A stretch of 64,000 nt of DNA. It comes from Oscillatoriales cyanobacterium. GTDB lineage: Bacteria; Cyanobacteriota; Cyanobacteriia; CACIAM-69d. Positions 21,702 to 44,813 of the stretch are shown in pieces. A program made the position numbers and the translations under genes. The stretch spans positions 1 through 64,000 of the forward strand of contig RDXB01000058.1 of assembly GCA_004292515.1 (NCBI GenBank), in the 5' to 3' direction. Below the pieces are notes generated by a model. The model made no database searches. It was not told the origin of the DNA and saw only the letters and a list, made by a program, of their open reading frames with translations. How positions within the stretch are numbered: the stretch's first letter is position 1; each line of letters opens with the position of its first letter.

Positions 21702-22664
21702 CTATGATCGGCCATGTTCCGAGCGATCGCCGGTCAAGTCCTTCAAACTTTCGATCGTCGAGAGAATGTTGCGCGGGTCCATAAACATCACCTTACTGCT
21801 GCTGCTGGTGCCGATCGCCTGGCCCGTGGCCAAGTAACTTTGGGCGATCAGGAACTGCAAGGCCTCGGCAGCCTTCGGGTCGTTTTGTAGCGACTGGGCC
21901 ACGATCGCCAGGGCTTCCGAGGTGGCTTGGGCTTGCAAAACCTGCTTTTGGCGATCGGCTTGGGCCTTGAGCACGATCGCCTGCTTTTCGGCCTCGGCAC
22001 CCAGCACCGCCGCTTTCTGTTGGGCCTCCGCCGCCAGCACTTGGGCCTCCGCTTGCCCCCGGGCCGTGTTCACCGCCGCTTCCCGTTCCCCTTCCGAAGT
22101 CAAAATAGCCGCCCGTTTGCGCCGTTCTGCGGCCATTTGCAACTCCATCGACTCCTGCACCGCCCGAGAGGGAATGATGTCGCGCAGTTCCACCCGCGTC
22201 ACCTTCACCCCCCAAGGATCGGTCGCAACATCCAAATCCTGAAGCAGCACTTCATTAACCCGTTCCCGAGCCGTGAAAGTTTCATCAAGTTCCAATTTGC
22301 CCATCTCCGATCGAATTTGGGTCAGCACCAAATTCGTCATCGCCATTTGCAAATTCTCGACCTTATAAAACGACTTTTCGAGGTCAACCACGCGCCAATA
22401 GACCACCGCATCAGCCGTAATGCTGACGTTATCGCGGGTGATGCATTGCTGTGGGGGTATATCGATCACCCGTTCCCGTAGGGTTTGCCGATAGGCCATG
22501 CGCTCCAAAACCGGCACTACATAGTTAATTCCTGGTTCGAGTCGCTTGCCTTTATATTTTCCCAGTTGCTCAACCAAGGCTTCATCACCTTGGTTAATAA
22601 TTTTGATTCCTGAAAGGGCAGTGCCACCCAAGGCAATCATCAGAAAGAAGAAAAAGGGGTTCAT
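21702..22664 (-). CDS. SPFH/stomatin-like membrane protein (slipin/QmcA type)
   Basis: Band-7 family protein of 320 residues. A hydrophobic N-terminus (residues 1-20) anchors it. The SPFH domain follows with [37 protein letters not shown] and [14 protein letters not shown] long Ala/Glu/Gln coiled coil at about 185-265 comes next, then a conserved [16 protein letters not shown]-like C-terminal part. These proteins assemble membrane microdomain cages. The ATG at 22664 is chosen because it places the hydrophobic anchor at the very N-terminus; an extension to 22721 would run towards a tandem repeat. The NfeD gene upstream on the same strand is the standard partner. Confidence 0.92.
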
Positions 22665-22712
22665 AGGGGTTGAAATGATTGTGAAATCAGGACTGAATGG
22701 CAGGTCAAACAC

Positions 22713-22772
22713 AATCAACATCTACAGAATCAACATCTACAGAATCAAGATTTACAGAATCAAGATTTACAG
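22713..22772. repeat. 15-bp tandem repeat between nfeD and SPFH genes
   Basis: Four units of 15 bp: two AATCAACATCTACAG followed by two AATCAAGATTTACAG. It lies about 50 bp upstream of the SPFH start codon, in its 5' leader. Confidence 0.85.
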
Positions 22773-41742: not shown

Positions 41743-42729
41743 CTAGGGTGTTGGGTCAGTCGGTTCAGCGGGCCAGGGGCGATCGATCCCACCTAGGTTC
41801 CGAACGATCGCCCTTGTATTGGTGACCAGCATTTTTTCATAGCTGTCGGCTGGGCCGCCCCGCGCCCCGATCGAGTCTGAATACAACTGCTGATCGGCTA
41901 GGGGCACGCCGCTTTCCGCGGCCACCGTTTCGATCAGGGCAGGGTTGATCGTGGTTTCCGCAAAAATTGCCTTTACCCCCGATCGCCGAATGCTTTGGGA
42001 GATGCGGGCCATGGTTTGGGCGCTGGGTTGTTCTTCGGTGCTGATGCCCACTAGGGTCCCGAGTACTGGAATCCCGTAGGCGCGTGCATAGTACTGAAAC
42101 GCATCGTGGGTTGTCACCAAATAACGTTTGGCAGCGGGAATGGTCTGAATTTGTTGCCGAATCCAACGATCCAACCGTTCCAACCGAGCGGTTAGTTGGG
42201 CCGCATTTGCCGCAAACTCGGCTCGATCGCTCGGTGACAGTTGGCTCAGGCGATCGCGAATGGCGGCCACCATGGCGATCGCATTGCGGGCATCGCCCCA
42301 CACATGGGGATCGGGCACAAGCGCCCCCGCCTTCGTCAGGGCCAGCGGCTTGACCACTTCCCCAATCGGGACGGCCGCCCCCCGTAAATTCGCAGACTCA
42401 ATCAGCTTGATCAGCCCCGGCTCCAGGTGATAGCCGTTATACAAAATCAGGTCAGCCTGTTCGATCAACACCGTATCGCGCGGCACAGGCTCATAGATAT
42501 GGGGATCGTCGCCGGGACGTAACAGCCCCACAACCGTCACTTCATCACCGCCAACCCGTTCCGTCAAGTCCAGCAGGATCGTGCTGGTGGTAATGACTTT
42601 AGGCTGAGGCGATCGCCCCGATCGCCCCGTGCCACAGCCCACGCACAGCCAGCTCAACAGCAGAACGACCCCGCCCCACCGGAGCGATCGCCCCCAACGC
42701 CAATTGCTCAACAACGCTTCAACCTCCAT
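41743..42729 (-). CDS. Zinc/manganese ABC transporter substrate-binding lipoprotein
   Basis: Cluster 9 (TroA/ZnuA/MntC) binding protein of 328 residues. The N-terminal hydrophobic segment ends WLCVGCGTG, a lipoprotein-like signal with Cys near residue 32. Likely metal ligands are His in DDPHIYEP, His in PDPHVWGD, His in TTHDAFQYYARAYGI and Asp in LYSDSIG. The third ligand is His, as in TroA and ZnuA, and not Glu as in the MntC and PsaA types, so zinc is more likely than manganese. There is no His-rich loop. It is divergent from the ATPase and permease genes, and the shared spacer probably controls both units. Confidence 0.9.
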   Translation of the reverse strand: MEVEALLSNWRWGRSLRWGGVVLLLSWLCVGCGTGRSGRSPQPKVITTSTILLDLTERVGGDEVTVVGLLRPGDDPHIYEPVPRDTVLIEQADLILYNGYHLEPGLIKLIESANLRGAAVPIGEVVKPLALTKAGALVPDPHVWGDARNAIAMVAAIRDRLSQLSPSDRAEFAANAAQLTARLERLDRWIRQQIQTIPAAKRYLVTTHDAFQYYARAYGIPVLGTLVGISTEEQPSAQTMARISQSIRRSGVKAIFAETTINPALIETVAAESGVPLADQQLYSDSIGARGGPADSYEKMLVTNTRAIVRNLGGIDRPWPAEPTDPTP

Positions 42730-42813
42730 AGGTGGCCCCCAAACTCAATCCCAGGGCGATTCCAGCGATCGTGGCGCTGGCGATTGCTGCCTGCGGTGCA
42801 GTGGGGGGCTTGA

Positions 42814-42860
42814 CGACATTTTCATTATCGTTTCATAATCTAGTTCATAATATTTTCACG
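42814..42860. promoter_or_regulatory. Four TTCA boxes at helical spacing (putative operator)
   Basis: TTCA occurs at 42821, 42832, 42844 and 42855, spaced 11, 12 and 11 bp, each followed by an AT-rich (T/A)-type word such as TTATC or TAAT. The array lies about 90-130 bp upstream of the binding-protein start. Regular one-turn spacing suggests cooperative binding of a regulator on one DNA face. Zur or a manganese regulator would be logical, but no known consensus is matched exactly. Confidence 0.45.
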
Positions 42861-42907
42861 ATCACACCAAATTTGATACTGTTGGAGGTAAGTAGCTGCT
42901 AGATCGA

Positions 42908-42945
42908 GTTCAGATCGCGTCACCAATAACGATCTGAACTTTTTT
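42908..42945 (+). terminator. Intrinsic terminator without an upstream gene
   Basis: GTTCAGATCG and CGATCTGAAC form a perfect 10-bp stem around a 12-nt loop, followed directly by six T. It points along the plus strand. No plus-strand gene lies between the array at 42814-42860 and this site. It could end a small RNA or act as an attenuator for the ATPase-permease operon that starts at 43180. Confidence 0.8.
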
Positions 42946-43179
42946 ATGGATCGGCAATTTCTGAGTGCTGCTCGTGTTTGAGAGTATCCTGACGAGCTAA
43001 TATTTCGCTTTTGTCATAAAAATTGATTTTTAGGCTGTTTTCCTAGGTTTTTAATGTCATTGGTTGGCCAAAGCAGCGCTCATTGGCCAGCAACAAGTGC
43101 AATTTGCTCCTGATAACCCAATATTCTGCACAGCAGCTTGATTGATCCCTGTTCCTTTTGAAAACTGAGTGAAACGATC
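42946..43179. other. Leader before the ABC ATPase gene
   Basis: About 230 bp without a gene. An AT-rich stretch at about 42995-43055 (GCTAATATTTCGCTTTTGTC followed by ATAAAAATTGA) is a likely promoter area for the ATPase-permease operon if transcription does not read through the terminator. No clear Shine-Dalgarno precedes the GTG at 43180. Confidence 0.4.
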
Positions 43180-43923
43180 GTGACTTTTGGGACATCGGCT
43201 ATTCATATTCACCACCTGAATGCCGCTTACCGGAGCGTGCGCGCTTTGCAGGATGTGAGCTTGTTAATTCAGCCGGGACGCTTGACGGGCATTGTGGGTC
43301 CCAATGGTGCGGGCAAAAGCACGTTGCTCAAGGCCATGTTGGGCCTGTTACCCAATGCAGTTGGCAGCATTTGCTATGACGATCGCCCCTTGCAGCAACA
43401 GCTTGAGCGAGTGGCCTATGTGCCCCAGCGATCGCAGGTGGATTTTGACTATCCGGCCACGGTTTGGGATGTGGTGCTGATGGGGCGCACCCGCAAAACC
43501 GGCTGGTTTCGATCGTTTTCGGCCGCCAGTCGCCGAGCGGCTCAAGCGGCCCTAGAACGGGTGGGACTGTGGGATCTGCGCGATCGCCCGATTGGTCAGC
43601 TTTCCGGCGGCCAACAGCAGCGGGCTTTTTTGGCGCGGTCAATCGCCCAGGAAGCCGATATCTTCTGCTTCGACGAGCCATTTGTGGGGGTCGATCGCCG
43701 CAATGAAGCGATTCTGTTTGAGCTGTTTGGCGAGCTAGCCCGTGATGGCAAAGTGGTGTTGGTGGTGAATCACGATCTCGGCGAATCGATCGCCCATTTT
43801 GACGATCTGATTTTGCTGAACCGGCAGTTGGTGGCGGCAGGCGATCGCGCCATGGTGCTCAATGATCTCAACCTGCAACGGGCCTATGGCGGCCAAGTGC
43901 GGTTTTTTCAGGAGGCTGCTTAA
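43180..43923 (+). CDS. Zinc/manganese ABC transporter ATP-binding protein
   Basis: ATPase of 247 residues energising metal import through the permease behind it. Walker A is GPNGAGKST, the Q-loop region is AYVPQRSQVDFDYPATVWDV, the signature is LSGGQQQR, Walker B is IFCFDEPFVGVD and the switch His is in VVNHDLGE. The Q-loop text with DFDYPATV is typical of cluster 9 metal importers. The start is GTG at 43180, the only one giving the complete fold. The stop overlaps the permease start in TAATG, so translation is coupled. Confidence 0.93.
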   Translation: MTFGTSAIHIHHLNAAYRSVRALQDVSLLIQPGRLTGIVGPNGAGKSTLLKAMLGLLPNAVGSICYDDRPLQQQLERVAYVPQRSQVDFDYPATVWDVVLMGRTRKTGWFRSFSAASRRAAQAALERVGLWDLRDRPIGQLSGGQQQRAFLARSIAQEADIFCFDEPFVGVDRRNEAILFELFGELARDGKVVLVVNHDLGESIAHFDDLILLNRQLVAAGDRAMVLNDLNLQRAYGGQVRFFQEAA

Positions 43924-44813
43924 TGGACTCGGTGCTGCAATCCCTAGCCGAGCCGCTGCACTATGCCTTTTTTCAGCGATCGCTTCTAGCCGCCTTAATT
44001 GTCGGGGTGCTTTGTGCCTGCACGGGTAGCTATCTGCTGGTGCAGCGGATGGCCCTGTTGGGCGACGCGATCGGCCACTCCCTGTTGGTGGGTTTAGCGA
44101 TCGCCTTTGCCATGGGGGGCAGCTTGTTTGTAGGGGCCTTGGTGTCGGGGTTGGTTAGTGCGGCGGCGATCGACTTCATCCGAGCGCGATCGCCCCTCAA
44201 GGAAGATGCGGCCATGGGGATCGTGCTCTCGGCCTTCTTCGCGTTGGGGATCGTGCTGATCACCCTGGTGCAAAAAGACAACAAAATCGATCTGAATCAC
44301 TTTCTGTTTGGCAACTTGCTAGCCGTGACCGGCGGCGATCTCTGGGACACCGGCCTGGCAGCCCTGCTGGTGTTGGGCGCGATCGCCCTGTGCTACAAAG
44401 AGCTGCACTTTTATACATTTGATCGGCTCGGAGCCCAGGCCGCTGGCTTGCCCGTGCGCTGGCTGGACTGGGGACTCACCACCGCGATCGCCATTACGAT
44501 CGTCGCCAGTATGAAAGCCGTGGGCGTGGTGTTGGTATTGGCGTTATTGATCACACCACCTGCAACGGCCTATTTGCTCGTGCCCCGCTTGCACCAAATG
44601 ATGGGTTTAGGAGCGCTGCTAGGTTGTTTTTCGAGCTTGACGGGCTTGTATTTAAGCTACTTTTTCAATCTACCTTCGGGCCCGGCGATCGTGCTGGTGG
44701 CCTCCGGGTTGTTTGTGTTGGCCTTGCTATTCAGTCCCCGCCAGGGATTGCTGATTGCCAGTGGGCGATCGAGTGTAGCTGACGCTTCCGAAGGCGATCG
44801 CCCCGCTAGTTGA
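43923..44813 (+). CDS. Zinc/manganese ABC transporter permease
   Basis: ABC-3 type permease of 296 residues with eight to nine hydrophobic helices. Typical family text is VQRMALLGDAIGHSLLVGLA, HFLFGNLLAV and MKAVGVVLVLALLITPPATA. It overlaps the ATPase gene by one base and completes the importer with the divergent binding protein. The C-terminal tail is polar. Metal specificity is set by the binding protein, for which zinc is favoured. Confidence 0.93.
   Translation: MDSVLQSLAEPLHYAFFQRSLLAALIVGVLCACTGSYLLVQRMALLGDAIGHSLLVGLAIAFAMGGSLFVGALVSGLVSAAAIDFIRARSPLKEDAAMGIVLSAFFALGIVLITLVQKDNKIDLNHFLFGNLLAVTGGDLWDTGLAALLVLGAIALCYKELHFYTFDRLGAQAAGLPVRWLDWGLTTAIAITIVASMKAVGVVLVLALLITPPATAYLLVPRLHQMMGLGALLGCFSSLTGLYLSYFFNLPSGPAIVLVASGLFVLALLFSPRQGLLIASGRSSVADASEGDRPAS

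Follow-up and report, generated by a model that had tools for sequence, protein, structure and literature searches.

Upstream of a metal-binding-protein gene, and between two divergent transporter units of a cyanobacterial genome, stand four TTCA boxes set about one helical turn apart, and they raise the question of what reads them and in response to which metal. The window that we analyzed is the whole stretch of 64,000 nucleotides, taken from a genome of 3.98 Mb in 111 contigs (G000); the relatives of this genome, like the named relatives of its binding protein, are cyanobacteria. A range of comparative data leads us to consider it likely that the array serves an OmpR/PhoB-family regulator, an orthologue of Synechocystis ManR, as its operator, and that this regulator would switch off the two divergent mnt units when manganese is in good supply. 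The features on which the argument turns are collected in Table 1.

Table 1. Genes and putative regulatory features around the TTCA array (window coordinates)
Feature	Position	Strand	Basis
ZnuA-family metal-binding protein (mntC-like)	41743..42729	-	Pfam PF01297, 271.6 bits
Possible mntAB promoter, TTGACG-18-CATAAT, overlapping the array	42810..42839	+	10/12 matches
Putative operator pair nearer mntC, ATGAAACGATAATGAAA	42820..42836	-	TTCA at 42821 and 42832 (+), 11 bp apart
Possible mntC -10, GATAAT, within the array	42824..42829	-	By eye
Putative operator pair nearer mntA, GTGAAAATATTATGAAC	42843..42859	-	TTCA at 42844 and 42855 (+), 11 bp apart
Terminator-like hairpin and U run, between array and mntA	42906..42945	+	Fold of 42900-42950
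ABC ATPase (mntA-like)	43180..43923	+	NCBIfam MntA, 226 bits, below cut-off
ABC-3 permease (mntB-like)	43923..44813	+	Pfam PF00950, 253 bits

The spacing of 11, 12 and 11 bp between box starts on the forward strand is as the first-pass annotation gave it, and so is the location of the array, 92 to 129 bp ahead of where the binding-protein ORF starts and between the divergent units. Seen from the binding-protein side, the array reads TGAA-11-TGAA-12-TGAA-11-TGAA, that is, two 11-bp TGAA direct repeats; direct repeats of 10 to 11 bp, about one helical turn, are what an OmpR/PhoB-type operator is made of. The four-box TTCA pattern (three gaps of 7 to 8) has a single occurrence in the window, and 100 Markov-1 shuffles produced none. 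The three-box pattern has three matches in the window against 0.05 expected, two of which are the array itself. The third, at 22671-22697 on the reverse strand, falls at the start of a 339-aa ORF (21705-22721, -); it lacks the extended pair (2 mismatches) and is probably a chance occurrence. Over the whole 3.98-Mb genome the bare three-box pattern is nothing special, since it matches 19 times and its reverse 15 times, and bare TTCA arrays were ruled out as a genome-wide signal. The extended box ATGAAANRATWATGAAA has exactly one match without mismatch in each of the five genomes G000 to G004, and in all five it lies at an mnt promoter. In the window's genome this sole perfect match is the mntC-proximal pair; the mntA-proximal pair, 12 bp from the other, is a weaker copy with three mismatches.

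Phasing of this kind had been taken as a sign that several regulator molecules bind along the same face of the DNA, a claim that was to stand or fall with the spacing in close relatives. The exact 11-12-11 layout recurs at the orthologue in two genomes of the same genus (G001 and G002) and one of the same family (G004), at the loci L012, L013, and L037. Their proteins are 56 to 68% identical and their boxes begin between 55 and 329 bp away from the protein match, and the comparison thus lends support to that claim. When TGAG is allowed, the layout is also found in two Hydrococcus loci (L078 and L087). We assembled 110 loci of the window's type, 30 of them taken best first from those of 96 genomes and 80 retained out of 438 candidates that had been confirmed. 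With L081 set aside because too little sequence lies upstream of it, 109 were left for counting. At least one TGAR-N7-TGAR pair lies within 400 bp on the gene's strand in 97 of these 109 loci and on the other strand in none, with a mean of 4.8 and a maximum of 10 in shuffled sequences. Controls inside the gene gave 0 of 80 named loci in sense and 2 of 80 in antisense orientation, and controls 1.0 to 1.4 kb upstream gave 2 of 75 and 0 of 75, respectively. The 12 loci without a pair within 400 bp include five from Microcystis and one, L030, with an array just past that limit. ATGAA pairs at 11 bp number 83 across the 110 loci against 0.3 expected, and ATGAA boxes are enriched at distances of 11, 23, 34, and 45 bp on the gene's strand only. 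The consensus from 180 mntC pairs is AAATGAAAnaAaTATGAAAAn. Because both the spacing and the pair are conserved, a chance origin of the array is excluded.

Which metal the transporter carries is harder to tell from the proteins. Against NCBIfam the binding protein scores 239.5 for AztC and 200.4 for Deinococcus-type MntC, both below cut-off. Its likely metal site, three His and one Asp (H77, H142, H208, and D285), is invariant in 11 relatives. The third ligand is Glu in proteins of the MntC/PsaA type and His in AztC and TroA; H208 of the window's protein faces the Glu of the manganese lipoprotein chains 4utp and 4uto, so that the Glu of the MntC/PsaA type is wanting here. Since its likely ligands resemble those of TroA and AztC, the binding protein may take zinc as well as manganese; by its predicted regulation, it would work like a manganese system.

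ManS and ManR reportedly control mntCAB in Synechocystis sp. PCC 6803, as described in 2002 by Yamaguchi and by Ogawa. This control is described in the available portions of four papers (PMC7020235, PMC4361706, PMC11649195, and PMC13421787), and according to reviews phosphorylated ManR binds and represses the mntCAB promoter in Synechocystis. Of 292 genomes sampled, 61 have the Synechocystis type of MntC, which is absent from the window's genus. None of those 61 is among the 33 genomes in which a window-type protein is matched over its full length at 53% identity or more, although only 11 of the 33, listed as searched without a Synechocystis-type match, are confirmed as sampled. G027, G041, and G051 combine a Synechocystis-type MntC with more distant window-like proteins (45 to 50%). 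The box is shared by both types: among 30 mntC loci of the Synechocystis type, the gene's strand bears the pair in 24 (mean of 0.9 and maximum of 4 in shuffles; PCC 6803 is not among the named loci) and the opposite strand bears one in 14, and L161 and L163, which are 96% identical to a solved Synechocystis MntC fragment, have four boxes at 11-7-11. As to the f2 lineage, the pair stands on the gene's strand in none of 22 loci examined (of 32 f2 loci listed) and on the other strand in 2 of 18 in one subset.

We identified ManR in two genomes from the genus to which L161 and L163 belong, by OmpR-family lengths and cysteine positions, as given in the accessible part of the published account: L185 has 232 residues with C64, C152, and C228, the published ManR has 234 with C64, C154, and C230, and SphR, RpaA, Rre28, and CcaR match the published lengths and positions exactly. 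The orthologue in the window's genome, L051 (G000:C55:538-1296, -), is the reciprocal best of ManR, at 661 versus 433 for the next protein of its own genome in a 32-row comparison, and it scores 271 to 272 bits against the genomes of that genus versus at most 182 for other genes; the gene of L178 reaches 169 bits versus 271 for L186. Orthologues of at least 233 bits are present in 84 of 89 non-f2 and 0 of 7 f2 genomes, and in a second set in 18 of 18 and 0 of 25 (best f2 score, 183); the f2 lineage, as sampled, has neither the motif nor a ManR orthologue. Five non-f2 genomes (G019, G022, G048, G069, and G092) are without an orthologue at this threshold. G069 is 99% complete as an assembly; G022 and G048, with assemblies 88 and 87% complete, have the pair, and they are the exceptions to the rule that the box stands before mnt genes where ManR is present.

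In one genome, G063, response regulator, histidine kinase, and mntCAB adjoin in a single cluster (L252, 5155-8453); the regulator is 55% identical to L051, and the opposite strand has a pair 73 bp ahead of the mntC ORF. This is possibly an ancestral, or else a secondary, arrangement of a manganese two-component system. A search for autoregulation found the pair in 3 of 24 stretches upstream of manR, no clear signal, and Rfam returned nothing at the manR locus. On the NCBIfam model NF041734 (RppA, cut-off 250), L051 (250.2) and the G063 regulator (253.8) pass and L185 (230.1) falls below, and automatic names of ManR may be mixed. We set the RppA label aside for L051, given the 366 to 380 that CopR- and NrsR-like rows attain on the same model.

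CopR and NrsR belong to the same subfamily as ManR, CopR- and NrsR-like proteins have a C-terminal SN-AA-RLLRRK segment in common, and a regulator of this kind might read the array in response to copper or nickel and not manganese. The available text of PMC4182526 places a putative CopR site, TTCATN4-5TTCAT, at the Synechocystis cop, mntC, and nrs promoters (upstream of the gene at mntC); like the array, it is a direct repeat of TTCAT. We nonetheless think a copper or nickel reading unlikely: the same text has Synechocystis mntC unchanged with copper or without CopR, the window's repeat is TTCAT-N6-TTCAT (42821 and 42832), L051 is far nearer to ManR (661) than to the CopR- and NrsR-like rows (441 to 462), its RppA score of 250 falls well below theirs, and the box also stands at the manganese genes mntP and hmx. 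We would give just as little credence to the idea that the regulator activates the mnt units from the array. OmpR-family regulators do act either way by position, as RpaB illustrates in the accessible part of PMC13421787; reviews, however, in the portions available, describe repression at Synechocystis mntCAB, and in 21 promoters laid out as 11-23-11 a -10-like hexamer falls between the pairs (at offset 11, exceeding 2 bits in 90% of cases), which argues against activation. We also looked for a -10 offset common to all importer promoters, and none emerged outside this 11-23-11 class.

That the array is an operator for Zur or Fur, or an AT-rich repeat that arose by chance, is the least credible reading, and we consider it very improbable. 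The zinc-type Pfam family of the binding protein and the three His and one Asp at its likely metal site speak for Zur or Fur, but the best matches to the palindromic Fur and Zur consensus sequences are at chance level (168 and 156 of 200 shuffles are as good). The view of the first-pass annotation that the array does not fit a Zur box is supported, the spacer having no Fur- or Zur-like match above chance. Against a chance repeat stands the conservation of array and pair already described.

Under regulation by ManR, each 11-bp direct repeat would take one head-to-tail ManR dimer, and two dimers would lie next to each other along the same DNA face. With sufficient manganese, phosphorylated ManR would cover the overlapping divergent promoters and turn off both mntC and mntAB; with scarce manganese, ManR would let go. 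From sequence comparison we infer which protein binds, how many dimers do so, whether control is negative or positive, and which metal is sensed. The overlap of the array with the possible mntAB promoter and the hexamer between the 11-23-11 pairs fit steric repression, and the mntC box, which overlaps or flanks the core promoter, appears to be in the place of a repressor. Taken on its own, the mntAB promoter match is at chance level (1 site found versus 0.6 expected); TTGAC and CATAAT can be read by eye at equal spacing in G001 and G002. The GATAAT of mntC is not independent evidence for a -10, since RATWAT also belongs to the operator consensus.

The leader of mntAB has a feature of its own. 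The fold of 42900-42950 (-16.1 kcal/mol; z, -3.66; equaled by 0 of 200 shuffles) contains a hairpin with a 12-bp stem, which a simple terminator scan missed because the loop exceeds the length allowed. A like hairpin with G-U changes lies directly ahead of mntA in G001 and G002, and none was seen by eye in G004. The hairpin may attenuate transcription in the mntAB leader, or it may end a short RNA. Rfam gave nothing useful between 41500 and 44000, the best E value being 0.97 for an archaeal-type family, and no match at the hairpin.

The box is not confined to mnt promoters. The only one-mismatch match to ATGAAANRATWATGAAA in the window's genome lies upstream of mntP, a gene of the manganese efflux family, and arrays are likewise found upstream of mntP in G001, G002, and G003; two-mismatch matches are mostly chance (7 in all in the window's genome versus 5 for the reversed pattern). 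The 96 genomes hold nine strong MntP loci, and in seven of these the gene's own strand carries the pair (mean of 0.5 and maximum of 3 in shuffles), five of the seven coming from one family and three from one genus, so that the independent cases are fewer; mntP of G010 and of G026 has no pair on that strand. A -10-like hexamer 26 nt after the second box averages 4.8 bits, versus -1.3 at the next best offset, and exceeds 2.5 bits in six of the seven loci, a location that suggests an activator. Rfam found nothing at three mntP loci.

An exact-pattern search of 15 chosen genomes returned 24 matches in 12 of them, the reversed control returning none. Sixteen lie upstream of the binding protein, two beside an ATPase gene very like mntA, five upstream of half-size UPF0016 genes, and one inside a large unrelated gene; the mntA cases and three UPF0016 cases were judged from translations, and the other two UPF0016 cases were confirmed by PF01169. 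Hmx1/2, pairs of half-size UPF0016 proteins, are manganese importers according to the available part of PMC11649195, which also has Synechocystis hmx1/2 transcripts unchanged on manganese excess. Twelve hmx loci chosen without the motif, six of them from the window's family and including the window's genome, have the pair on the gene's strand in 6 and on either strand in 8 (0.55 and 1.06 in shuffles). The hmx site of the window's own genome is a two-mismatch match and rests on its place and on the pairs in G001 and G002. In hmx promoters of this genus, TAGAAT precedes the pair by 20 to 22 nt, which puts the pair just past the start; the place of the -10 at hmx differs between promoters. The regulatory signs at mntP and hmx are predictions. 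Longer UPF0016 genes (putative mnx; n = 18) are not enriched, with 3 pairs in sense and 5 on either strand versus 1.3 and 2.2 in shuffles. Upstream of three such genes (L325, L334, and L339) we noted series of TTCA or TGAA boxes at 11-bp intervals, and those of L334 and L339 are suggestive.

How does such a box compare with known systems? The Pho box of PhoB consists of 11-bp direct repeats that take one head-to-tail dimer near the -35 of activated promoters; the array has 11-bp repeats too, and mntP shows the near -35 place, but core sequence and signal are different. The HLR1 box of RpaB (KTTACAWW-N2-KTTACAWW in the accessible text of PMC13421787) is likewise a cyanobacterial OmpR-family direct repeat with a position-dependent sign, yet its core sequence, regulator, and signal are all other. 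With ManS/ManR-mntCAB of Synechocystis the window's locus has in common an OmpR-family orthologue, mnt genes as the target, and, in near-identical Synechocystis-type promoters, four TGAR boxes in two 11-bp pairs; it differs in that the gene for its binding protein diverges from those for ATPase and permease, that this binding protein belongs to a different subfamily, and that the pairs are 12 bp apart, not 7. ManS/ManR is described as the only reliably identified manganese-responsive transcription control in cyanobacteria, with promoter binding by ManR shown for mntCAB and transcript effects only for futABC, exbBD, and tonA (PMC7020235 and PMC11649195, available portions). What is already in print, in the texts accessible, is the repression of Synechocystis mntCAB by ManR and the TTCAT repeat before its mntC as a CopR-like site (PMC4182526). 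In the open-licence literature that we searched, we met no ManR consensus, no phylum-wide spread, and nothing that ties ManR to mntP or hmx.

The metal that photosynthesis uses to split water is manganese. For a broader proposition we see the chances as evenly balanced: that one ManR box, roughly AAATGAAANaAaTATGAAAA, serves as a position code for manganese balance in many cyanobacteria, repressing importers (mntCAB of two binding-protein types and hmx1/2) where it stands around the core promoter and activating the exporter mntP where it stands 26 nt upstream of the -10. A box common to importers and an exporter makes the regulon predictable from sequence and open to testing in laboratory strains. 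For a transporter family whose ligands are ambiguous, it also points to a probable metal. If the position code is true, ManR would be a two-way manganese switch and not the repressor of a single operon.
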